Of a stretch of DNA of 64,000 nucleotides, positions 1,784 to 60,062 are shown in pieces. Both the position numbers and the translations under genes were made by a program. The notes under the pieces are model-generated. The model was not told the DNA's origin. It ran no database searches and saw only the letters and a program-made list of their open reading frames with translations. Location of the stretch: the NCBI RefSeq assembly GCF_014805625.2, contig NW_023998414.1, positions 32,350,002 through 32,414,001 on the forward strand. Direction: 5' to 3'. The first letter of the stretch is position 1. Every line of letters starts with the position of its first letter. The stretch comes from Glossina fuscipes (taxonomy: Eukaryota > Arthropoda > Insecta > Diptera > Glossinidae).

Positions 1784-4700
1784 TTACAATTCATCTTTTT
1801 GCAGCAAAGTGTAACGGTTCTTTGACGGTCCTAACTTTTTAAAGCTGGATTCAGGCGGCGAGGTATTAGGTAACATTTCTATGGTATTATCATTGCTAAC
1901 CGGATCGGGTCCGTAGTGAAATTCCCTATAAATAAAAATTTAGAGAAAACAAAATGCTTTTCACGGCGAAAAAACGAACAAAAGAACACACACACACACA
2001 CACTTGAAATTTGAATTTCAAGTGTATTCAAAACTTACCGATGCAGTTTACCGCTATAGAGATCTTGTAGAAATTGTTTCAATTTCCCCGAAATATACAT
2101 ATCACGGAAATTTGTAAACAAATACATATGCCTAAATGAGTCGATAGCAATTAATGGCAAATCTTTTTCCGTTTTTCCCAAATGATTTAAGGGATGAGCA
2201 AAACGTTTGCCATCAGCCGTCAAGAAATTCACATTTTCTGAGAAATAGCAATAATAATAAGAATAAATATTTTTTTTTCACATTTTTAAATTTGTTTAGT
2301 ATCGATCAACTTACGTTTTTCATCTAATAATTGCGTTTCAATGACCGCCTTAAAGTCTTTAATTGATCCAGTATCGTCCGGATGATGAAACAATATTAAG
2401 AAAGGTAAGCCTTCTTCGGTTAATTCTTCTGCGTTCTCGAACGTTATTTCACGTACCAATGGTACACATTTCTCCTGTATCCATATTTTCAATTCATCGA
2501 AATTTTTTAAACTACCCACGTATGTTTCATCGTTTTCATGACTCAGAGCCACATCCGGACGAAATACAATAATTGGTGTACCTAAATAACGCGATAAATA
2601 TAAATGGATCCAGACAGACAAATTCGTAGTAAAATTTGAAAAATACACTTTCATCTAAGGCAAAAGCATAAAATATGTATACAATAACAAAAACAAATGT
2701 GAAGGAATTACATTCGGAATTTTTCTTTCGAGCAATATTCCCTGCCCTGCATACGACAAAATCATCATTCATCTCAATATCTTGTATCTTGTCTGTTGTG
2801 TCAAAACAATATCGACAAAGCAGTTTTTAAGTTTCGAGAATAGTCAGGCGAAGGTAAACCGAGCAAACAGACTGATTGCGGCGAGATATGAGTTAAATTC
2901 TCAGTAAATGACGTAAACACGGCACAATACATTGGGCGAAGACGCTTCACGCGAAACAACTATTATGTTCATACAATACGTCAGGCGACACATAACAATA
3001 GTTGAAACGAAGTACACTATTTTTTTGAATACTGCCAATGTTTTTGGCAAATTTGCATTGGACATCCAAATTTGATGAGTAAAAGCACTAAAGGAAAAGG
3101 AAGGCATTCTCAGTGTACGTTGTACAGTAGGCGCGCCTTTTGCATAACCAAATAGCGTACAACAAATGGCAAATGTTTGTACCAAATTCGGACCTAGTTA
3201 ACTTAACTTACACAAACGGACAGATAGACAGACACTCTTAGATTGATACAAAATTTGATATACTTGATCAAGCTTTATTTATAGGATGATTGAAATGAAA
3301 GGAAGGAGAGTATAGAAAAAAAGAAAAAAAAAAAAAATAGAAATAATAATCTGCTTATTACCTGGTGGGTGCATGGCTTGAACAACTTCACCGAAGCCGA
3401 CGTGAAATTCGCAATCCTCCTTCAAATTTGTGGCTACTTTACGGAATGTATCGTACTCTGGTTGATCGCGACGATCAAAATACCCAAAGATAATACGTTT
3501 CTTTACATCCAACTCGTCCAGTTCCTTTAATAATTTAAACTCCTTAATTGGATCCTCTAATTGTTTGCGTACAAATTCTACGAAGGCGTCAACTGAACGT
3601 TGTCCGCGATATTCACGTTTACTTAGCTGACCATTCCGGACTATTTTCAAGGTCGGATATTTGGTTATATGAAAACGTGAAGCTATTGCTGTTTCTTTAT
3701 CACAATCAACTTTGCCAAGTACAACTTTGCCCGATTCGGGAAAGGCCTCTGCAATCTACAATATCAATTTTAAAATCGCCCCCCGCCCCACACCCCCATC
3801 ATGTGTAAATAAAGCAATTATTAATATAGTAATGAATGAACAAATAATGATGACATTTCTTACCTTCTCGGCAGCTTCATTAAATATTGGTGCTAATAAA
3901 TTACTAAATCGACACCATTCGGCATAAAAATTCAAAAACACCAATTCATTAGAGGCTGTAATGACATAATTTAAGTTTTATTAATAGGTACGGAGACGCA
4001 ATACAAAAAGTTTCTTAAATTGAAAAAGTAGAACATTGTCAAACATTAGACACGAGGCCCTTATCCATCTAAAACTTAAAATGAATAAGTAATATACACA
4101 CACAATACATATAATATAATAAATTTTTTACTTACAGATAATACAACATAATTGATTTAAATCTTCTCCGAGTTACTTCAATTGGCAAACGATTAACTTA
4201 ACTACTGACTCGACTGACTTATATTTAAGAAAATATTCTTCAATCCTAACATGCACTATCACTTCAAGATTACTCTAGATTTCTTGGTACTTTCCTTTTC
4301 GTTCGATACTTTCGATCCCAGTCTGGCATTAATAGCCACTCACAAATTCTAAAAGCTGATGACTTTCTTTTCACCTCATTCTTTTTATAAATAAAAAAAA
4401 AAAAAAAAAAAAAAATTACAAATTTGGAAGTTGGAATTTGGTTCCAAAAAAGAAGGACCAAATAGAGAGAGTAAACAATTAATGTAACATTTATTAAATT
4501 GGCAGGGAAAGCAAGAATTCGTAGCAAATGTTCATCAAAGATTTCACACAAGCGCGAATAAATGAAAATGAAAAGACAAATAAAGCACGAATGCATTGTT
4601 TTCAAATTTTTGAAATAAATAAGATTTTTGAAATATTTTTCTAGATTTTCCTTTCATACCCATCACCGAGGAATGGGAAGCATATTAAGTTTACAACACC

Positions 4701-19420: not shown

Positions 19421-20493
19421 ACATAGTTTCAGTTTAAGGTAAAACCAGGAGTCTGTGTGTAATATTTTTGCATTCTTTTTAAGAAATGTTTGTCATATTA
19501 GTTTACGTTGAAACAAGTAGTTAAACGAGAATGCTTGTGTTCCATAGATATTTTCGACTTATGTGAACTTAATTATGTGATCTATATATTAGGGCCTATC
19601 TTTTTCTATATAAATTTCATTTTATCACGTATCGATGATATTGGCAATGACGAGCCATTATAATGAGTTTGACCCAGTTACTTATTATTGACTATAGATA
19701 TTATGTCTTTGTAACATTTACATTAAACATCATCCTCCTCGTTCTCGCATTTTCATTTATATAAGAGATGAATGCGCATAAAATTGCCAGTGCACTTGGA
19801 CATAAGAAGGAGAAAACAACTTGAAAAGAGATATCGAGTATATGCAGCAGTATATTAAGTTGCGTCAAATGCTAGATACATTTCTCTTAACACTTTAGAA
19901 AAGATAAAAATGTAGACCAGCAGTGGCAGCAATGTCAGCTAGACTAACTTCCATAGAGAGGATAAAGAGAAGAAGGAGGAGGTGGGGTTTTTGTTTATAT
20001 ATTGCACATTTTATTGAATGATTTAAGAATGATGACATTTATATCAATAAATAGTTTGTTTGGTATTCATTCTCTCCATATCCTCTTTGACTAATAGTGT
20101 GGCATACTTTCCTATAATAAAGAATAATAACATTGTGAAATGTTTATATAGCATACTTCAAACGATTGCAAATCTGAAAGCAAATTTAATGGGTTTTTAG
20201 GAAGAAAACACATAGGAAATTATTTATTGACTCTAACAAGGTCAAACGTACAGCAAGAGCAAGCGTACTATTTGTGTTTCTTCAATAACAAAGACAACAC
20301 TACAGTTTAAAAAGTTATGAAATGAGTAACACAAAAGTAATAATTTGTAAAGTGATTTGCAAGGTTTGTAAACTGAATCAAATAGTCCTTTTTGTTGTTG
20401 TTGTACCTTTCCAATTATTAATAAACGGTAAATCGTGGGAATGGCCGGAATCGTTCCGGCCATTGAGAAAGATTGGTGATCATCTGAAGTCCT

Positions 20494-20561
20494 TGTCTCT
20501 CTCTCTGTCTCTCTCTATCTATCTATCTGTCTGTCTCTCTCTCTCTCTCTCTATCTGTCTA

Positions 20562-20654
<93 letters not shown>

Positions 20655-20664
20655 NNNNNNNNNN

Positions 20665-20719
<55 letters not shown>

Positions 20720-20802
20720 ATCTGTCTATCTATCTATCTCTATCTCTCTCTATCTATCTATCTGTCTATCTATCTCTATCTCTCTCTATCTATCTATCTC
20801 TA

Positions 20803-20843
<41 letters not shown>

Positions 20844-20882
20844 CTCTCTCTCTCTCTCTATCTCTATCTCTACCTCTCTCTA
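20494..20882. repeat. (CT)n / (TATC)n compound microsatellite
   Basis: About 390 bp of CT dinucleotides interspersed with TATC and TGTC tetranucleotides, interrupted by the N gap. True length is unknown because the assembly breaks inside it. The long Ser/Leu open frame spanning it is a translation of the repeat. Confidence 0.97.
20655..20664. other. Assembly gap (10 N)
   Basis: Ten consecutive N inside the CT microsatellite, most likely a fixed-size placeholder for an unresolved repeat length. Confidence 0.99.
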
Positions 20883-22019
20883 TTCAATTATAATATCAAT
20901 AGGTTGCAACAATTAAAGAATTTATGGTCAAGCAAACGCGACATTTCAAGACCGTACACCAATTGGTCTTGCAACATTGTTGCTCATACATTTTCGTAAT
21001 AAAATGATACAAATTATTCTTGCATAGCGTAGGATTTTAAAAAACAAACTTTCTTGGTAAAGGCATTTTTATTCTTCTCCCTCTCTATTCATGACTCTAT
21101 TTTTGGCTTAGTTATCATGCGAACATGTGGTCCGGTGGTCTCGTTTTAACTAGCTTTGATATATCACAGATAAAGTAGAGATCAACAGAATACTGATATT
21201 GTCACTACAGCAATTTCTGCTCCTTGACGAAATGAAGGACCCTTTCCGTGTTCCCACCCACTCAACTTGAAGCCATCTATATACCGCATAGTACGCTATC
21301 GTGACTTGTCGTTCTCATCTGCATACTGCCAGCCTTTAGCACAATCTATCAGCAGTGAGTGGTCTTTCCCGCCATAACTAACCGCCACCAAAAATCTCAA
21401 TGGTCTCAAACATTCATCTTTATCCTCTCGGCTATGCGATGTTATGTAATTTTTTTTAAGTTCCCAAAAAGTTTTCTAATTTCTGGCTTTTTGGGGAGAT
21501 TATCATATAAAAATTGTTAAAATCGCCCTGGTACGGTTAAAGTTGGAAAGTGAATGGGATGAGTTTTAATAACTTGAGACGATTGTTGTTGTTTATACGA
21601 TAGACTTTGGCAAAAAATCAAGAGAAACTAGAACGCATGTCGCCGCAATGCAATGACTAAATATTTATTGCGGAATACACAATAGATAGATAGATAGCGT
21701 GTAAATGTGTTAAATGAAAAGAATGTTGAAATTAATATATTGATTAAATGCCATTGATGATTATAAGAAACCAACACTTCTAAGTCTTGCCGTTTATTAT
21801 TAACCACTTTTAATTTCTTATATGTGATTGTTTTACATACTTCAAGTGTTCGCATATGGCTTACTTACTCGTTTATGTAAGTACAGGTAACGGATTGTAG
21901 TAATGTAAGATGTCTCGGTTCGAGTTAATCAGAGCACGCATATGTGCGTATTTTATGATCACTATTTTCCCATAAAAGAAGCAGTCTATACATCTTTAAT
22001 TAATACCGTAATATATGCC

Positions 22020-30135: not shown

Positions 30136-32472
30136 ATGGAACCTTCGGATGGATCACCGCCGCCATCACTTTGTATGATACGTGCAGCTGAGCTATTTCC
30201 AAAAGCACAAATGGAGAAAGAAGATATGCAGCTCGCTGTGCCATTTCAAGAACGTAAGCAAAAACACACAAACATTAGCAAAATGTTTTGTATTATAAGC
30301 GTAAGCGTTTTTCGTTCATCTTTTTTTTTCATATATGCAGTTGCTGGTGAATCAGTAAAGTATTTGGGTCGTACTGACGATGGTGTTCTAGCTCTGTCGA
30401 ATTATCGTATCTTCTTACAAAAGAATTCAGCTAAAGTTGAGACCTCCATACCGTTGGGTCTCATTGAGTCATTGCAAGCCCGGGATCTCTTTCATTTGAT
30501 TATTTGTTGCAAAGATGCCAGCACTATAAAGTGCTCGTTCGAAACAGCTGAACAATGCACCGAATGGCAAAGACGTATCCAATTATCTGTAGGCGTACCT
30601 GAAACACTGGAGTCAATATTCGCATTTCCGTTCTGCTCATGGACATGTGATTCCTTGAATGGTGTAGGTATAAACACAAATCAATTTGTTAGCGGTGGCG
30701 GTATTGGTGGAGGTGTGATTAACGGCGAAAACGGTCAGTTATCTATATATCAAATGGCTGATTGGACGGAACGTTTGCAGCGCACTCCGTCACGCTATGA
30801 AGATGATTTCGTCAGGGAAGTCGAACGTCTCGGCTTCGATTTAAATGGTCCATGGCGCATATCCCATGCCAATGAGGATTTTAAATTGTGTCCTTCATAT
30901 CCACCAAAGCTACTAGTGCCCTGTTGCATACCCGATGAAACACTGCATAGTGTAGCGAATTTCAGGGGTTCACGTCGTCTGCCAGCTGTTGTATGGCGTC
31001 ATCATAAATCAGGAGCGGTTATAGCTAGATGCAGTCAACCTGAAGTTGGTTGGCTGGGTTGGCGTTGTAATAAAGATGAGCAATTGCTCAAGGCTTTGGC
31101 TGAAGCTTGTGCTTTCGATAGAGCTGAGCAATTGCGTTGCTTGGCTCAAGCTACTAACACTAATAATTCAGTGACAACAGCCAACATAACGCCACAACCC
31201 ACTCAAACACAAATACCCTCCGGTGAAAGTTCACCGTCCAGTCTAGAGAGCAGCCATGAAGAGGTGGCCTTAGATGAAGTCAAAGTAATTATGATTTATA
31301 AAAATGCGATTAATGATTGATGGAAATATTTAATTTTTGCTTCTTCCTTCTGCTTCCAGAAAATTCTTATAGTTGATGCTCGAAGTTATACTTCCGCCGT
31401 TACAAATCGTGCTCGTGGTGGTGGCTGTGAATGCATTGAATATTATCCTTCGGCGGAGATAGAATTTATGAATCTGGGCAATATACATGTAATACGTAAA
31501 TCTTTTCACGCTTTACGTCAGCTCTGTGCATCACCACCCGATGTTCCCAAGTATGTTCAAGCGTTTCAACGATCAATGAAATTGTTCTGTAATCACCATT
31601 TAAAAATTTCAGTTGGTTAGGTCTCTTGGAGAAAACGATGTGGTTTCAACATTTATCTGGATTATTGGCAGCCTCAATGACCGTATGTCATGCGATAGAA
31701 AATAAAGGACGCCCTGTTTTGGTGCACTGCTCTGATGGTTGGGATCGTACACCACAAATTGTGGCTACAGCTCAACTATGCTTGGATCCTTTCTATCGTA
31801 CCGTTGATGTAGAGTTTTTACCTAATTACAAATTTTCTATTATATGTCGTTGAACTGTTCAATTTCTTTCTCAGGGCTTTCGAATTCTAGTGGAACGAGA
31901 ATGGTTAAGTTATGGTCACAAATTTGCAGACCGTTGTGGTCATGGCCCAGGTTCAGACGAAGTTAACGAACGTTGCCCAGTATTTTTACAATGGCTAGAT
32001 TTAATACACCAAATACACAAACAGTTTCCCTGCAGCTTTGAATTTAGCATGGGATTTTTGGTAAGCTATTGATAGGACGGACTTTCATATAAAATTTGCA
32101 CCGCTTCATTTGCATTCATTTTTTATTTTTTATTTTTATTCTATTTTTTTTTTTCATTTTTAATTAAGATAAAACTAGCTCAACATTCGCATTCTGGCCT
32201 TTTTGGCACGTTTTTGTGCAACACTCTGAAAGAACGCATCGAAAATTCTGTATTTGAGCGTACGTTCTCAGTGTGGCCATTTTTGTCAGGCCCGCTCTAC
32301 CGAAATCCTCTATATATATCCAATAAAAATAAAGTCCTATGGCCCGCATATAATGTACGCGATTTATCACTTTGGACTGAAGTCTATTTGGGCAGCTTGG
32401 GCGGCAATCAAAATTCAATAGATTTCCCATCCTACGCCAATGATAGCAGCTTACAAGGTTCAATTAGTAAGT

Positions 32473-44363: not shown

Positions 44364-44783
44364 CTATGATCCTCTGTAAGTGGAATAACCGAAGGGCGAT
44401 ATCAATAACGGTACATGATAGTGTTCATTTTCTTGACATTGCACTGTAACATCTATGAAAGGATAAAAGCTGGTTACATTTTGTAGATTAAAATAAGGCC
44501 GTATGTCAAATCTCAGTTTATATACGCCATTTTGAAAATCCGTGCTATACAATAATTGATGAATGCGACCCTGTTTATCAGTTAAAGATTGATTAATTTC
44601 AAGCCATTGATCGCCGCCATCTTGCTTAATATCGTTTTCGGTTAAACGATACACAATAACGATGACATTGGCTGCCGGCTTACCAACGCTTGTATCTAAT
44701 ACATGAGTGGATATAGTAAGAGTTTCCGATTTAACAGCGGTTTGGTTTTCAGCTTTGGCAAGCATCGGCTTTAGTGCTGGTTT
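44364..44783 (-). CDS. URAH: 5-hydroxyisourate hydrolase (transthyretin-like family)
   Basis: It hydrolyses 5-hydroxyisourate, the product of urate oxidase, to OHCU in the purine-degradation pathway. The exon covers the whole catalytic fold: ISTHVLDTSVGKPAANV near the N-terminus (His of the active site), YKLRFDIRPYF (Arg), SFYPFIDVTVQ, HYHVPLLISPFGYSTYRGS at the C-terminus. The C-terminal Tyr-Arg-Gly-Ser tetrapeptide marks hydrolases and separates them from true transthyretins. The start is uncertain. A strong acceptor (TTTTCTTCTTTGCAG) ends at 44784, so translation probably comes from an upstream exon; a possible 27-nt exon with ATG and a phase-0 GTAAAA donor lies at 45050-45024. Alternatives are an ATG at 44810 that reads across the acceptor, or the internal ATG about 6 codons into the exon. 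Confidence 0.92.
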   Translation of the reverse strand, partial: KPALKPMLAKAENQTAVKSETLTISTHVLDTSVGKPAANVIVIVYRLTENDIKQDGGDQWLEINQSLTDKQGRIHQLLYSTDFQNGVYKLRFDIRPYFNLQNVTSFYPFIDVTVQCQENEHYHVPLLISPFGYSTYRGS

Positions 44784-44810
44784 CTGCAAAGAAGAAAATG
44801 TTAAATTCAT

Positions 44811-51191: not shown

Positions 51192-51620
51192 TTACTGAGT
51201 TTGACCGCAATCTTCAATAACGATGCGCTTTGCAGGTCTACCTGATTGACCACCATATGCTTCCATTTTCTTGACCGTCTCTAGACCTTCTATCACTTTA
51301 CCAAACACAACATGACGATTATCAAGCCAAGATGTCTTTACCGTGGTTATAAAGAATTGCGATCCATTAGTATTGGGACCGGCATTGGCCATTGACAAAA
51401 TGCCAGGTTCCGTATGCTTCAATATGAAATTCTCATCATCGAATTTATTGCCATAAATTGATTTGCCGCCAGTGCCGTTCTGTGCAGTAAAATCGCCACC
51501 TTGACACATAAAATTCGGTATAATGCGATGAAAAACGCAATCCTTGTAACCGAAACCCTTCTCGCCGCTGCACAAAGCCCTGAAATTTTCAGCAGTCTTC
51601 GGTACAACGTCGGCACGTAG
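51192..51620 (-). CDS. Cyp1: Cyp1 alternative terminal exon A (most distal)
   Basis: It has 142 codons plus stop, preceded by TTTATTTTGCAG and starting in phase 0 with [13 protein letters not shown], equivalent to CypA Leu24. It joins the common 5' exon (59826-60062) to give 221 aa, or 165 aa from the internal Met57, the exact CypA length. All catalytic positions are present: FHR (CypA His54/Arg55), FMCQGGDF (Phe60, Met61, Gln63), MANAG (Ala101-Ala103), QFF (Gln111, Phe113), WLD (Trp121) and RHVVFG (His126). Peculiar changes against CypA are Gly50Asp, Gly96Glu and Cys115Thr. The pocket-edge pair at 81/82 is Asn-Lys. It ends VIEDCGQTQ. Its acceptor lies only 155 nt below exon B. Confidence 0.93.
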
Positions 51621-51683
51621 CTGCAAAATAAATTTACAACAATTTCATAAAACCGCATATAGGAGTTCTGTTAAGCAAATTAA

Positions 51684-51689
51684 TTTATT
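51684..51689 (-). terminator. Candidate polyadenylation signal for Cyp1 terminal exon B
   Basis: AATAAA on the gene strand, about 87 nt after the exon B stop and only about 64 nt before the exon A splice acceptor. Exon B 3' processing and exon A splicing signals therefore nearly overlap. Confidence 0.6.
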
Positions 51690-51775
51690 ATTGAAATCCT
51701 CGCTCTAACAGCATAACAACAACAACAATAATAATATAATATAACGTATGTTATATACGTTTTATGATCTGAGTA

Positions 51776-52204
51776 TTACTTCAGTTCACCACAATCGATA
51801 ATAACGATTTTTTTCATTGGACTACCCGCAGCACAACCAAATGATTCCATCTTCTTCACTACATCCATACCCTGTATAACTTGACCAAAAACAACATGTT
51901 GACCATCCAGCCATGGTGTCTTAACAGTACATATGAAAAATTGCGAACCATTTGTATTGGGACCTGCATTCGCCATAGAAAGAATGCCCGGCCCAGTATG
52001 TTTCAATTTAAAATTTTCATCTTTAAAAGTGATACCATAAATGGATTTTCCACCTGTGCCGTCATGATTAGTGAAATCACCGCCCTGGCACATAAAATTC
52101 GGTATGACACGATGAAACGTACAACCCTTATAGCCGAAACCCTTTTTACCCGTGCAGAGAGCTCGAAAGTTCTCTGCCGTTTTTGGTACTACGTCGTTGC
52201 GCAG
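51776..52204 (-). CDS. Cyp1: Cyp1 alternative terminal exon B
   Basis: It has 142 codons plus stop, with acceptor TTATTTTTAG and phase-0 start [13 protein letters not shown]. The frame is open through the whole exon although no ATG precedes MCQGGDF. Catalytic His54, Arg55, Phe60, Met61, Gln63, Ala101, Gln111, Phe113, Trp121 and His126 equivalents are all intact. It is the most divergent of the five near the pocket: CypA positions 81/82 are Ile-Thr (Glu-Lys in human CypA), Glu43 is Lys ([10 protein letters not shown]), and the late loop is [10 protein letters not shown]. It ends [10 protein letters not shown] shared 5' exon supplies the first beta strands, so alone it could not fold as a cyclophilin. 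Confidence 0.92.
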
Positions 52205-52509
52205 CTAAAAATAAATAAAAGAAAATGAAAGCAACCACACATTTTAAACTTCCCGGTTCGTTCATATATTTTATATTAAATGGTCGAGAGGTATGCAAGA
52301 ATTACATGTGATGTTTTTATTGAATAATGTTTAATTGAAATGCATTTGCGGATAAACTAAAAAAATAACAAAAAAAAAAAAAAAAATAAAATAAAATCAA
52401 ACAAAAAACAAACAGAAGGCAAAACTTCGTTCGTTAATCTCCCAATCTCGTCATCCATAGATTCATCTTTTCCATTCACACGGCTCGTCTTTTTCACATT
52501 TTGTTTTGT

Positions 52510-52515
52510 TTTATT
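52510..52515 (-). terminator. Candidate polyadenylation signal for Cyp1 terminal exon C
   Basis: AATAAA on the gene strand about 15 nt after the stop. A second AATAAA (52529-52534) overlaps the stop codon itself, so this 3' UTR could be extremely short or use a signal further down. Confidence 0.45.
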
Positions 52516-52529
52516 TTTGTTTTTTTTTT

Positions 52530-52958
52530 TTATTTCAATTCACCGCAATCGGCTATAATCACCCTCTTCTTAGTACGGCCCGAATCCGAGCCGAATGTTT
52601 CGATTTTCTTAACAATTTGCATACCCTTAACCACTCGGCCAAAAACCACATGCGCATCATTTAACCAATCGGTTTTTCCCGTACAAATGAAAAATTGCGA
52701 TCCGTTTGTATTGCGGCCGGCATTGGCCATCGAAAGTATACCAGGACCGGTATGCTTGAGTTCAAAATTTTCATCATCAAATTTAGGGCCAAAAATCGAT
52801 TTACCACCGGTGCCATCGTTATTAGTAAAATCGCCGCCTTGACACATAAATTTTGGAATGACACGATGGAAACAGGATCCCTTGTAACCGTAACCTTTCT
52901 CACCTGTACATAAGACACGGAAATTCTCAGCTGTCTTTGGCACTACATCTGAACGCAG
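52530..52958 (-). CDS. Cyp1: Cyp1 alternative terminal exon C
   Basis: It has 142 codons plus stop, with acceptor AACGCTTTTGCAG and phase-0 start [13 protein letters not shown]. The catalytic set is complete ([32 protein letters not shown]). Differences from CypA include Tyr79Phe (KSIFG), Pro105Arg ([11 protein letters not shown]), and 81/82 as Pro-Lys. The segment before Trp121 reads CTGKTDW. It ends [10 protein letters not shown]. Pro105Arg lies close to the substrate pocket and could alter binding; this is inference from position only. Confidence 0.92.
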
Positions 52959-53542
52959 CTGCAAAAGCGTTCATTAACGCAAAAAAAAAGGAAGGGGAAA
53001 GAGAGAAGAAGAGGGCGTGAAAAGTTAATCAAAAAAAAAAAAGAAATTCGAAATTCGAAATTCAATACAATTAAAGTTGTATAGGTGTGTGTTGTATAGA
53101 TGTCTGATGATACGTGTTGTTTTGGCGTGGCTTGTTGTTGCTGCTGCTGCTGTCCCTGCAAAAAAAATTACTAAAACACCATTCACTTTTTTCTTTTTTT
53201 TTTCTTTTTTTTCTTTTAATATAGAATAGGATAAAGAATTGCTAGAGAATGTCTTTATTTCTATTATTATTTTTTTTTTTTTTTAAATTACGAGAATTTG
53301 GAAATTTTACAGTATTTATCTTTTGCTTTATTAATATTTTTGGATATTTTACTGTTCATTTTCCCTTCTTTCCGTTATTTCACTTTTAGAATTGGAAATT
53401 AAGAGGAAATCTTATTACTTCCATCGTTTTCAATATCAAGTGCATGATGATTATTTAAATTTAAATGCGCTTTTTCTCTCTTAAAAATATAAACAAAAAA
53501 AAAAAAAAAAAAAGAAAAAGAAAAAAACTTGAAATATTAGGG

Positions 53543-53548
53543 TTTATT
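53543..53548 (-). terminator. Candidate polyadenylation signal for Cyp1 terminal exon D
   Basis: AATAAA on the gene strand about 64 nt after the exon D stop codon. Confidence 0.6.
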
Positions 53549-53611
53549 TGTTGTTTGTTGTTGTTGTTGTTGTTGTCGTTGCCATTGCTGCTGCATTTGT
53601 ATATGCTCTGC

Positions 53612-54037
53612 TTACAGAGCACCGCAATCAGCAACAACAATTTTTTTAGTTGTCTTTCCTGATTGAGTACCATAGGATTCGATTTGTTTGACGACGTCCA
53701 TGCCATCGACGACTTGGCCGAAAACAACGTGTTTGTTGTCCAACCAGGAAGTCTTAACAGTACAAATAAAAAATTGCGAACCATTGGTATTAGGTCCGGC
53801 ATTGGCCATAGACAAGATGCCGGCGCCAGTATGCTTCAAAGTGAAATTTTCATCAGCGAATTTGTTGCCATAAATCGATTTGCCGCCGGTGCCATTGTGA
53901 TTTGTGAAATCGCCGCCCTGGCACATGAAATTGGGAATGACGCGATGGAAGGAGGAGCCTTTATAACCGAAACCTTTTTCACCAGTGCATAGAGCATGGA
54001 AGTTCTCAGCGGTTTTGGGCACAACGTCACTACGAAG
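53612..54037 (-). CDS. Cyp1: Cyp1 alternative terminal exon D (most canonical)
   Basis: It has 141 codons plus stop, with acceptor TTTAATCTTCAG and phase-0 start [13 protein letters not shown]. Its sequence is the closest of the five to typical fly Cyp1 ([51 protein letters not shown]). It uses more C/G-ending codons than its siblings, which suggests it is the highly expressed version. Catalytic residues are intact; Arg37 of CypA is His here (NFHALC). It ends in Ala-Leu, one residue shorter than the other exons. The pair at 81/82 is Asn-Lys. Confidence 0.94.
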
Positions 54038-54309
54038 CTGAAGATTAAAGAAAAGTTTTTTTTTTTTTTTGTTTTTTTTGTTATTTCTTTTAATTTTATT
54101 GAACCAGTGTTAAAAAAGTATATTATTATTACACATACTTTGCACCTCAATTCAAAATTGTAGCACACATGCATACACGTACACGCAAACCCACACAGAA
54201 TTTTATATATTTATATATACACGAATTTCAATTTCAGGAAACACATACTTTTGCATCATGTACACCAATCACCACCATATATATATATGTATATATGTAT
54301 ATAGATTTT

Positions 54310-54320
54310 TTTATTTTATT
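54310..54320 (-). terminator. Candidate polyadenylation signals (two overlapping) for Cyp1 terminal exon E
   Basis: Two overlapping AATAAA hexamers on the gene strand (54310-54315 and 54315-54320), about 76-86 nt after the exon E stop codon. Confidence 0.6.
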
Positions 54321-54395
54321 GTATGAATCATTAAATATTAAAAAGGCTTTTAGCATGCAATACATTCATTTGAAAATGTACACTTGTGTGTTGTT

Positions 54396-54824
54396 CTACT
54401 GCAATTGACCACAATCGTTAATAATAATTTTCTTTGTTGTCTTTCCTGATTGATTGCCCATTTGTTCCATTTTCTTAACCACATCAATACCTTCTATAAC
54501 TTTTCCAAAGACGACATGACGGTCATCCAACCAAGCTGTTTTTACCGTACATATGAAAAATTGTGAGCCATTTGTGTTCGGACCCGCATTAGCCATTGAC
54601 AATATACCGGGACCGGTATGCTTGAGGATAAAATTTTCATCGTCAAATTTACTGCCATATATCGATTTACCCCCAGTGCCATTGTGTGCCGTAAAGTCAC
54701 CACCTTGGCACATAAATTCTGGTATAATACGATGAAAACTTGATCCCTTATAACCATAACCTTTCTCTCCAGTGCATAATGCTCGAAAGTTTTCCACCGT
54801 CTTTGGAACAACATCTGGGCGCAG
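54396..54824 (-). CDS. Cyp1: Cyp1 alternative terminal exon E (most proximal)
   Basis: It has 142 codons plus stop, with acceptor TTATGTGTTGTAG and phase-0 start LRPDVVPKT. It is the first terminal exon met by the transcript, about 5 kb after the common 5' exon. The catalytic set is complete ([33 protein letters not shown]). Its 81/82 pair is Ser-Lys, and Ala33 of CypA is Val (KTVENF). It ends [10 protein letters not shown]. Its body most resembles exon A in the segment [11 protein letters not shown]. Its own stop and downstream AATAAA signals mean that using it excludes exons D to A. Confidence 0.93.
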
Positions 54825-57800
54825 CTACAACACATAATTGCACAATTTTTAAAACCATGTTATTGTTTATTACCAACTTTACTGGTCAGTTGCAAAGTTA
54901 CACGTCAAGCACTTAACATATACAAATTTCACTTCATGCATTCTCCTCTCATCACACAAGGCTCGCACATAACAAATCTTACAAACCAAACTCTCAATCA
55001 TCACTTATGTATATACGTATTAAAATTAATAAAACTTAAAAACAATACAAAAAAAAAAAAATAAATAAATAAATATATAAATAAATAAATATATAAATAA
55101 AGAAATAGTTACAATAAAGTAACAGAGGCATTTTATAAACACCAACCGCTACTGCACTACAACAAATTTCATTTTTTATTCGATAGCAAAGACATACACA
55201 ACAACAAATTGATAATGCTCACGAAGTTAGAACGAAGAGTGCTAACAGTGTGCTCAACCTTTAATGTGACAATCTTTTTATCTCTTTATCGATCCACATG
55301 TTCATACAATTATTAATAATCAGCCGAGAAAACGGTTGTGCATCCTTCCCCCTCCCGTTTTCTTGTAATGTTTCAAACCATCCTCTGCTCGGATATCAAT
55401 GTAAATAATTTCGCTTTTACTCGACCTTGATCTAACATACAAGCAGGGATCGGGATTCGGTTTACGATTCTCGCGCCTATCGAACTTGCATTTTGTATTG
55501 ATGGTACCCGGATAGCGGCGTTATTTTGCTATATATACATACATCGATGATATCACAAATATTCTCCATACAAATTGCAATCGAGTACCGTCAATCCAAA
55601 ATGCGATCCTGTCGTCTTTGCCGTCGTTTGTATTGTACAATAATTCAGTAACGAGAAGCCCGTTAATCCGGCCCAGCTCAAAAAATATCGAATTTAGATT
55701 CCTTTTAATATGATTTAATTTATGCTTCGAAAATGCAATCCATTTCGTATTCAATATTTCCATACGCAGAATGTACCTATTATTAAACCCTATGTATATA
55801 TATATATATATATATATCCTTATACAGGCCTTTTTGTCTGCTAGCACTTTAATAAAAGACCGACTCCCCAATGATCATTGATAAATTATATGCTGTATAA
55901 TATAGTGATGACAATAAACTAATCCAGCTTAGTGTAGTTGCAGCTCAGTGCCGATACAGTATCCCTCTACCCTCCGTCTCTTCTATCCGTTACTATTTGC
56001 GAAAAAAAAAGTTTTTCAAACTTTTCATACACTGCGGATATGACTGTACTTACTTGTATTTGTAAGCCTCCGCAAGCAATTTTAATAGATTTAATAAAAT
56101 TCTTCCTCTCTTTAACACATTCGCGGACGTGAATACGCTGCTATAGCATACATTTTCATTGTGATGCAAAATGCCATGGCATCATCATACTATACAACAT
56201 TTACACTTGAAAGACAATAATTTTTCATTTAATTTAACATAACCGTCGGCTTTTTTTTTAATTATTGTATTTGCCGAAATATTGATTCAACTGCTTCTTT
56301 AGGTTTTTCCATATTATTGCAATTTTTTTTTTTTTTTTTTCTTAAAGCGCTTTTAAATTCATCAATTTCATGCAAACTAGAAAGAGACAGAGAGAGAGAG
56401 AGAGGTTTTTCTCATTCCTCATTTTTCTCTTTTATATTGAAATGCTATAGCATTCATGTAATTTCAGTTGAAAAATTTCATTTAGAGATATAATCGTGAA
56501 TGCTATATAATAGTATGCTATATGATCTTCTAATTACCCTTAGAAAATGTAATTCAATCAGAGATTTTGGATATCACAACTAATTTCAAAAAAAATCTAC
56601 AATAATTTTTTGCACCTTACTGAAATCCTTATTGTTGGCGAACGTGTTAAAATCACTTAAAAAAAAAAGTGTGCAACAAAAATATTTATAGCAATTCATA
56701 ATCTCAGCAGATAATATAGTTATGAAACGAACATTGTCGTCATGCCTTTAAAAGGAGAAATGATTGAAATTCTTTTCTATTCGTTGCGAAAAAATAAAGT
56801 TTTCAAATGCATTTAAGTAAAGTAATGAAAAGTTTAAGTGAATCATAGGCAAGTATCTCTTTTTTATACAAATGCATTCTAATGACATCATATGGCATTA
56901 TAACGTAATTTGCATTAATATACAAAATCGATTGCCTGCTATTTTTAATGATATTTTAATGTCCTTTACATGAAAAATTGCCCTCCGGCCAATCGTTCGT
57001 CTGGTAGATGCACCACCTATTTAACCAAAAATCGTTGACTGTTATGTTTTTCTTTTATTACATGCATATTCCATGGAGGGTGAGTGCATTAGGAAAACAG
57101 AGTTAAGTAGGTTTCAATTACATCGATAGGCTTAATGTGAATAAAACGCTGCCACCATTTCACCATTCACTACTGCAGATTAATTATGTGAGTTCGCGCG
57201 TAACGAACACATATATATATATATATATATATATATCTTAAGTATATGAGAAGTTTATGTATCCTTTCGTCGTTAAGAAATTCTTTTGATAAATGTCGAA
57301 GACATGCCCCCGCCTACTTTATTATAACAAAGACAAAGAGATTCAAATGCCACACTGGCAAACACTGATCTTAAACGATCATGAGTTCAAAGATACGTTT
57401 AAATTTATTGCGTTTGTTTGGGAGGAGGAAGATATGTGGAACAAACTAATTATTAAAATATATTTGGAGATATATATACATATGTATATATATATTTTCG
57501 TTTATTATTTTGTAAACGATTTCACACAACCTTACAAACGTTGAAACCAGATTTACATACATGGAACCGTCGAATGTAGTGAATTGATTAAAAAGCAATT
57601 TTAAAAACACTTTTAAATAATTAAATTTTGAAATAAATAATAATAAATAATAATAAATAATAATAATAATTAAATTTTGATTAACATACTACACATTCAG
57701 CTCGACTCTACTATTTCAGCTCGATGACTCAATGCATATAAATATGACTGAAGTGGCTCAGAGTCGGTTTATACTTACTCGTAACAATTTTCAAGATTGC

Positions 57801-59825
57801 GACCATAATCAACAAAAAAAAAAAAAAAAAAAAATTAAAACTCTTTTCTCACGTCACGTTTTTTTTCCCCCCTTAAACAATTTGAAATTCTCCTTTCTTC
57901 TTCTTCTTCTTCTTTTTTTACGATAAGCATCATCATGTGGTACCTTACGTAGACAGCGTGTGTTATAAATGCCGTACTGAATGCAAATGTATTTGATGTC
58001 AACAAGCATTATCTTTTAATCAATTGAGAGAAGAAAGAATGATATTGTTTTAGTAAAAAAAAAAAAAAAAAAACTCTACCGCCGGCATCATACTTCACGC
58101 TTTACAAACTCTCGTTTACTAGATCGCATTTGACACGAGGTAGAAGTAGGTAAGGCTATGACATAAAAGAACTCTTTAAAATGCACCTTCTTCTGAACTC
58201 ATGCATTTTAAAGGTACATCACAAAAACAGATTAAATGAGAGAAATGTATGTTTTTCTTAAAACGGATATTCAACATTTCCCACCGGAAAGTGAGTAAAT
58301 AAATTGTCACGATTGACTCTTCCCTTCGGTTTTCAGCTATTTCAGTTGGCTTCTTCATAAGCGATGAAGTCAATTTAAAAATTTTGGTCACTAAAATCGA
58401 GTATGCTATGCCTTAATATTTACGGATAGACGAGGGTGGCTATACCGTTACAGCATTTTACATTGGTCAAAAGTATATACAATTCCCCAAATTTCTCATG
58501 TGATCAAATTTATATGTCGTTAATTCTCTAGCGATAAGTAAAAAATTAGTAGAACTTAGCATTTCGGTATCCAAATCAATCAATGTTACGTGCGCACCAC
58601 ACATTCCTGCTCAATACATGCATACATACATATACATATATACATACATATTTCGTCTCATTTTGTTACTATCGATTTATGCTTGCACACTTTTTAGCAA
58701 TTTTTTTTTTTTTTTTAACTAACGCTAATAACCTTATGCGGAAAAACCTCTCTTTTGCGATTACGTACTGGACGACACAAAAAAAAAAAAAAAAGTATAC
58801 CTGCACCATATATTCTTGGGGTGAACAAAAAAATTTGTATAGAAGAAACGTGGACACATAAACTCATGCGCTATACTCAAGGTCACAAATAGTCATTAAC
58901 ATCCGCACGACACATGGCTAGCAATTTTAACATTTGAATCTCTCTTAAATTGGAAATCTCCGCTCAAAATATAACGCTTTGCTTTAATTAGTAAAAAAAA
59001 TATTTAACTCATTTATCTATCCTTCTCTTTCTTTATGCAAAGCAAAAGAATGTAATGGAAAATTCCAAATGTACGCAAGCGAGAATTTTTAGCTGAACAC
59101 CTTTAGAGGTTATAGTAAATTATGTTTTTTATACAAAAAAAAAAAAAAAAGAGCGGGAACATTACTGAATGAAATAACGACTCTATGCGAAAGTTGACTG
59201 GAAAAATTACCTTAAATAATTCTAAAATTACCAAAAAAAAAAAAAAAAAATCCGGAAACATGAATATGCAGAATCATTCTTCAAAATGTGATTGCTGTAT
59301 TGCAAGCAAATTGCACTTGAAAGCCACCGAAGTTATAATACGTAAATCTCCTGTTTTCTTTAAAATAACCTTCAGAAAAACAATTATTTTCTCAAGCTTC
59401 ATATAAGAAAAGTTGAAAAAAAAAAGAAAAAATGTTCTCATGTCTTTCATACATAAACCCAAACACAGCAATACACACCCGGCGTTCATGCACTCCCACA
59501 TTTAATCATTAAATATATATACATATAGACTTGCGGTGGCGTTGGCCGCTGCCGTCCATTTTACAATTTGTAAGTAGACTGCGGAAAAACGCCAACCAAC
59601 CTAACCCTACTTTCTAATTTCTCATTGCTGTTTGAAAGCAAAAAAAAAAAATTCTGGAAAAGTTACTACATACCACACACGCTCACGCTCGTTATTTCAC
59701 TTTACACATTCAAAAAAAAAAAAAATTGTAATCACACAAAATAAAAAAAGCAATTATGTAAAAAAAAAATAAAAAGAAATTTCTCGTCATGCTGAACATT
59801 AGAAAATGGGAATGTGTATACTTAC
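54825..59825 (-). other. Cyp1 intron 1 (5.0 kb)
   Basis: It separates the common 5' exon from the first terminal exon. AT-rich, with (TA)n runs at 55797-55817 and 57210-57236, poly-A/T runs and an (AG)n run near 56388. A 116-codon minus-strand frame at 55521-55871 is probably chance. I found no additional copy of the GLPRVFFDMTADG coding segment here or between the terminal exons. Confidence 0.7.
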
Positions 59826-60062
59826 TTCCATGACAATGCGTCCCAAGGGTTGACCGTCAGCGGTCATGTCGAAGAACACACGAGGTAAGCCCATTTTTCC
59901 TTTACTTGATAAATTGCGTACACTGAGAAATCTGAATTGAAACTGACTCGTTTTAATTGCAGCTAGCGACGAAGCTGGTTTTCTGGCCAAAATGGCGACC
60001 GGCTGCGACACTCCAAATGTCATTTGACAGCATCGTGCCAGTGTTGCCCCTAAAAAAGACAT
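59826..60062 (-). CDS. Cyp1: Cyp1 common 5' exon: mitochondrial-type presequence plus cyclophilin N-terminus
   Basis: Cyclophilins catalyse prolyl cis-trans isomerisation and assist folding. This exon has 79 codons and ends R-I-V-M-E at a consensus donor GTAAGT in phase 0, matching all five terminal exons. Residues 1-56 lack Asp and Glu, contain eight Arg/Lys and many Ser/Ala (ending FRFLSVRNLSSKGK), as in a mitochondrial targeting sequence. Met57 precedes GLPRVFFDMTADGQPLGRIVME, the first strands of the cyclophilin barrel. Starting at Met57 gives a 165-residue cytosolic protein with exons A, B, C or E. The junction corresponds to CypA Glu23|Leu24. Fly Cyp1 is known to have an N-terminal extension of this kind. 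Confidence 0.93.

Follow-up and report, generated by a model that had tools for sequence, protein, structure and literature searches.

A tsetse Cyp1 cyclophilin gene predicted to join one shared 5' exon to five alternative terminal exons

A gene for cyclophilin A/Cyp1 is generally assumed to yield a single enzyme, and mammals diversify cyclophilin by separate genes. We analyzed a stretch of 64,000 nucleotides (nt) from the tsetse fly Glossina fuscipes (contig NW_023998414.1, positions 32,350,002 to 32,414,001; hereafter the window), which holds a Cyp1 cyclophilin gene. This gene very probably consists of one shared 5' exon (exon 1) and five alternative terminal exons, the bodies, named E, D, C, B, and A in 5' to 3' order along the minus strand. 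The nearest described system is Anopheles GSTD1 (aggst1-alpha), which presumably has a common 5' coding exon and several alternative 3' terminal exons. The array resembles it in that one exon common to all forms codes for the N terminus, while the rest of the enzyme is encoded by homologous terminal exons in tandem. However, GSTD1 is a mosquito detoxification enzyme, whereas the gene studied here is that of a housekeeping prolyl isomerase of higher flies, with five bodies and a shared exon that contains two in-frame starts. A figure legend of PMC1761136 refers to alternative splice variants of An. gambiae GSTD1. The architecture as such is already known from Anopheles GSTD1, and what is notable here is its age, the five full bodies, and the possible loss in Drosophila.

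Other dipteran genes were also compared. In lola and mod(mdg4), transcripts combine shared 5' exons with one terminal exon chosen from many. Their variable ends are transcription-factor zinc fingers and are partly trans-spliced, whereas the variable ends found here are near-complete catalytic domains. Tandem duplicated alternative exons are also present in the Dscam1 and Mhc clusters, where the mutually exclusive exons are internal and a common exon lies downstream. In the array, each copy was terminal and every body ended in a stop, so that it was not a cluster of internal exons of the Dscam type. Drosophila Cyp1, which we take to be CG9916, was similar to the array gene in its related leader, its LPRVFFDM segment, and its D-type body. 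However, each of the five leader-bearing drosophilid proteins in our tree had one D-type body. Databases already carry fly cyclophilin isoform models. A literature search, in which few subscription papers were covered, found neither a cyclophilin terminal-exon array nor a report of such fly isoforms. Cyclophilins are named in tsetse antennae and in the Bactrocera accessory gland (PMC9423656, PMC4652233), and the accessible parts of these papers describe no such array. The accessible parts of PMC4195677, PMC1847502, and PMC3753621 held no closer precedent.

Exon layout of the array

The original prediction had placed six exons in this region, and all of their coordinates were exact (Table 1). 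Exon 1 encoded a leader of 56 amino acids followed by the first 23 cyclophilin residues, and it ended in a phase-0 donor, GAA/GTAAGT, at 59825. The leader contained eight basic residues (4 R and 4 K) and no D or E, and in our judgement it appears to be of mitochondrial type. A second in-frame start (MGLPRVFFDM) was located at codon 57. As claimed before, all five bodies continued in frame from the identical codon, with L-R directly after an AG, and each had its own stop. Body exons with an acceptor and a stop behind one shared coding 5' exon correspond to an array of tandem alternative terminal exons. The open frames behind 453 minus-strand AG sites, from exon 1 to 50400, were compared: the five longest began at the five body starts, and the next 15 listed fell within bodies. 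When the window was searched by tblastn, exon 1 was found once and the bodies five times (best other match, expectation value 0.25), and intron 1 gave neither a second copy of exon 1 nor an extra body.

Alternatively, the bodies might belong to five cyclophilin genes in tandem. Each gene would then have a separate promoter and a first exon that is not annotated, and exon 1 would serve only one of them. Short unrelated first exons are possible on sequence alone, and the gaps between bodies measured 155-653 nt, the shortest being that from B to A. However, the window held no second exon-1-like sequence, and upstream of each of the five bodies there was no in-frame ATG before a stop. The start codon and the first 23 residues of the fold must therefore be supplied to each body by another exon, and these residues were present in exon 1 only. 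We consider five separate genes very unlikely.

An error of assembly was also weighed, because the original prediction had named a misassembled, collapsed paralogue cluster as an outcome that would speak against it. A cluster of separate paralogues that had been collapsed or misjoined could be suspected from the one run of N in the window (20655-20664), but this run lies far outside the array, and there were no unknown bases within it. In addition, the copies differed by 26-31% in DNA, and their longest common run was 18 nt. Together with this difference, the absence of N in the array counters an artefact, which we regard as extremely improbable.

Table 1. Positions of the array exons and of neighboring features in the window
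Feature	Position	Strand	Description
Shared exon 1	59826..60062	-	237 nt, 79 codons, open; one match in window by tblastn
Intron 1	54825..59825	-	5001 nt, exon 1 to body E
Terminal exon E	54396..54824	-	429 nt, 142 amino acids + stop, A/E type
Terminal exon D	53612..54037	-	426 nt, 141 amino acids + stop
Terminal exon C	52530..52958	-	429 nt, 142 amino acids + stop
Terminal exon B	51776..52204	-	429 nt, 142 amino acids + stop
Terminal exon A	51192..51620	-	429 nt, 142 amino acids + stop
HIUase/transthyretin gene	44364-44810	-	Pfam match
Myotubularin-related phosphatase	30136-31320	+	Pfam match
ERp44-like thioredoxin exons	2286-3755	-	Pfam thioredoxin matches

Divergence and constraint among the bodies

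The five bodies were compared in all 10 pairs. Protein identity was 70-81% and DNA identity was 69-74%. The proportion of synonymous differences (pS) was 0.66-0.90, near or beyond saturation. The synonymous substitution rate (dS) was beyond correction in six of the pairs and 1.6-3.7 in the other four, and the nonsynonymous rate (dN) was 0.13-0.23. This was the rate comparison that had been proposed at the outset, and it bore out the heavy synonymous divergence. Together with the tree, the low dN relative to near-saturated synonymous change also favored long-term selection over recent duplication. The full catalytic sets expected in five intact frames were found as well: every frame was open, and 13 of 13 positions, which we take to be active-site positions in human CypA numbering, were identical in all five bodies. 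A PF00160 score among the bodies was given for C, with 150.9 bits against a cut-off of 21.7, and solved CypD and CypA matched exon 1 joined to C over 161-164 residues. The PF00160 domain and the active-site residues placed the product among the cyclophilin-type peptidyl-prolyl isomerases.

These data bear on the possibility that body D alone works and that the four other bodies are dead or dying and are rarely or never spliced. Body D had the highest GC content at third codon positions, 0.47 against 0.33-0.39 in the others. However, the open frames, the invariant active-site positions, and a dN far below the near-saturated synonymous change did not agree with decay of four bodies. We give this possibility little credence. 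Transposed or dead copies were rejected because of the open frames and the constrained protein change. Gene conversion among the bodies was rejected as well, since identity reached at most 0.88 in sliding windows of 60 nt and the common runs were short. Seven S2 gatekeeper positions of the cyclophilin pocket are given in the accessible part of PMC2911226. Position 81 was S, N, P, I, and N in E, D, C, B, and A, respectively, and position 82 was T in B. The gatekeepers thus varied at two of seven positions (81 and 82), compared with 52 of 141 positions overall. Variation was therefore not concentrated at the pocket, and specialised substrate pockets were not adopted as an explanation.

Body types and isoform models in other flies

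Relatives were compared as protein models, taken from protein lists that were clustered at 90% identity and of which the best 120 were shown. Exon 1 joined to body A was identical, letter for letter, to P0141, 'isoform 3-T3' of Glossina fuscipes fuscipes, which represents 13 clustered sequences. An existing annotation therefore connects exon 1 with body A, the most distant of the five, and the use of A in a named Glossina isoform argues against a gene in which D alone works. In Glossina brevipalpis, P0151 combined a related leader with a body of type D. When the leader region alone served as the query, 43 proteins were obtained from 114 candidates, and Glossina, Lucilia, Calliphora, Musca, and Stomoxys ranked first among the named ones. 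In the models of relatives, the junction between exon 1 and body fell after VME or TME. The leader and the same phase-0 junction identified the gene as the Cyp1 orthologue of higher flies.

Seven isoform pairs were compared. Calliphora X1/Lucilia X2 is a pair between species and was excluded from the count, which left six within-species pairs. In five of these, the entire exon-1-coded stretch was identical and was followed by divergent bodies with 73-82% identity. The identical stretch was 94 amino acids long in Teleopsis X2/X4, 89 in both Ceratitis X1/X4 and Bactrocera X1/X3, 69 in Stomoxys X2/X3, and 68 in Haematobia X4 and a UniProt entry. In the sixth pair, Teleopsis X4/X5, the start differed and only the last 66 amino acids before the junction were common. 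In each of Teleopsis, Stomoxys, Ceratitis, Bactrocera, and Haematobia, a pair of proteins from the same species is thus identical over everything that exon 1 encodes, which favors one gene over separate genes with their own first exons. The same longest-contig value was listed for both paired proteins in Teleopsis, Stomoxys, and Ceratitis. The values differed in Bactrocera, and its one-gene status therefore depends on the isoform names. In Calliphora vicina, P0001 was a 289-amino-acid model in which a B-type body ran into an A/E-type body, in the order found in the window. Most likely, the same array was wrongly annotated there as one protein. The models of other species, in which one leader precedes different bodies, and the order of types in Calliphora also contradict an assembly artefact. 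As a separate observation, the leaders of Teleopsis dalmanni P0014 and P0011 (X4 and X5) differed as well, which suggests a putative optional 5' segment in this species.

A tree of 46 body rows was used to compare the body types. Body B fell into one group (support 100/99) that also contained Bactrocera X1, Stomoxys X2, and the first half of the Calliphora model. Body D paired with Glossina brevipalpis (96/84), and both lay in a group of 17 rows that included the drosophilids (92/87, not starred). Body E grouped with Lucilia cuprina X2 (99/92), its nearest relative with 89% identity, and body C was the most divergent of the five, on a long branch. The C and A/E groups were named only after the tree was viewed. 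When the Glossina bodies were forced together, the cost was 107.5 log units and the grouping was rejected (p value of the approximately unbiased test, p-AU, 8.8e-09). Among the genera compared, Glossina belongs to the calyptrates, Teleopsis to the diopsoids, and Bactrocera to the tephritoids. Since body types were shared across families and the Glossina grouping was rejected, the duplications predate Glossina. From the tree, type B is at least as old as the calyptrate-tephritid split, with strong support, and the other types, on weaker branches, are probably as old as the divergence from diopsid flies. The sequences thus point to an array of alternative terminal exons that is old and has been maintained.

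The placement of D was compatible in part with a gene in which only D works, because D clustered with the drosophilid bodies and six full-length relatives without names in the tree were of D type or near D. However, type B was kept across families with the support given above, and the same holds, less strongly supported, for C and A/E. The outgroups with one body each (Hermetia, Eupeodes, Megaselia, Chironomus, and flea) were placed beside the A/E types (83/80), which gives a weak indication that D may be a derived type. All five leader-bearing drosophilid rows were of D type with one body each, and D. willistoni GK14585 fell with the D-type drosophilids; the listed D. takahashii and D. setifemur were left out of the tree. 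At the protein level, no non-D body of a leader-bearing drosophilid was found among the matches listed in the clustered lists. Because all five rows were of D type, the data suggest that Drosophila may have lost the other bodies.

Choice of body and meaning of the array

The acceptors were described before as good, and this held best for B and D. Acceptor strength was scored by a crude pyrimidine score and expressed as the share of all 453 AGs that scored as well, which was 0.9% for B, 1.5% for D, 7.5% for A, 13% for C, and 19% for E. The strengths were thus not uniform and that of E was poor, a point that would also fit the use of D only. AATAAA was found after each stop, at +76 for E, +64 for D, +15 and +209 for C, +87 for B, and +120 for A. 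That of B lies inside the gap before A. The four gaps between bodies contained nine AATAAA, compared with 3.4 expected at the rate of the window, and intron 1 contained six in its whole length. A donor-like CAG/GTGAGA was observed within body C at 52903 on the minus strand, and a scan of the five bodies with one donor pattern found a site in C only. If it were used, a 55-nt internal frame-shifting exon would result.

Transcription would start ahead of exon 1. In each pre-mRNA, the single donor of exon 1 would be joined to one of the five acceptors, and cleavage and polyadenylation behind the chosen body would terminate the message. The choice may be a competition in which acceptor strength is set against nearby poly(A) sites and splicing against read-through to the next body, and it would not require a Dscam-like RNA lock. 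Since every body has a stop, each protein contains exactly one body. The choice is inherently exclusive, because a single donor faces the acceptors of five terminal exons, and each of these exons has a stop and a candidate poly(A) signal. Two in-frame starts combined with five bodies could give up to ten proteins. With the mitochondrial-type leader and the in-frame cytosolic start, a mitochondrial and a cytosolic form of each body may be possible. RNA docking or selector pairing was also looked for. The 25 longest of 198 inverted pairs were A- or T-rich or AT-repeat tracts, and none was convincing.

Some results weigh against one gene with five alternative bodies. For G. fuscipes, only exon 1 with A was found among the best 120 of the clustered lists, with no join to B, C, D, or E, and 'Isoform X' names presumably denote automated gene models. 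The acceptor of E was the weakest of the five. A C clade (window C, Teleopsis X5, the Haematobia entry, and tephritids) was not rejected (p-AU 0.50) but was not demonstrated, with weak support, and support for the A/E clade was also weak (56/87). In addition, a leaderless Drosophila immigrans protein stood apart from the D type in the tree. Nevertheless, the sequence was best read as originally predicted, with a single 5' exon that serves five complete terminal exons in a mutually exclusive way, and other flies' isoforms that share the exon-1-coded part and body types that cross families support this. This reading is carried by the exon anatomy, the intact frames, the constrained protein change, and the same junction with different bodies in the models of other flies. 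We infer that all five bodies may be used in tsetse, with D probably the main housekeeping form.

Three further features were identified in the window (Table 1). The ERp44-like neighbor would fit the Drosophila Cyp1 locus, which has an ERp44 neighbor as well. A long TC-type simple repeat was observed at 20480-20916 on the plus strand, broken by the 10 unknown bases mentioned above.

As a tentative scenario, to which we give clearly less than even weight, the one cyclophilin that served cytosol and mitochondria in the ancestor of the schizophoran flies would have become a cassette of specialised catalytic bodies selected by splicing. Many flies would still use this cassette, tsetse with up to ten proteins from one promoter, and Drosophila would be the reduced exception. 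One gene in a disease vector holds five old catalytic bodies under constraint. By protein evidence, pest and carrion flies also hold several bodies, and the standard fly model may keep one. The array offers a clean system for testing how terminal-exon arrays are selected and retained. These results suggested that Drosophila Cyp1 data may not hold for flies of other groups, and that enzyme diversity can stay hidden behind gene counts.
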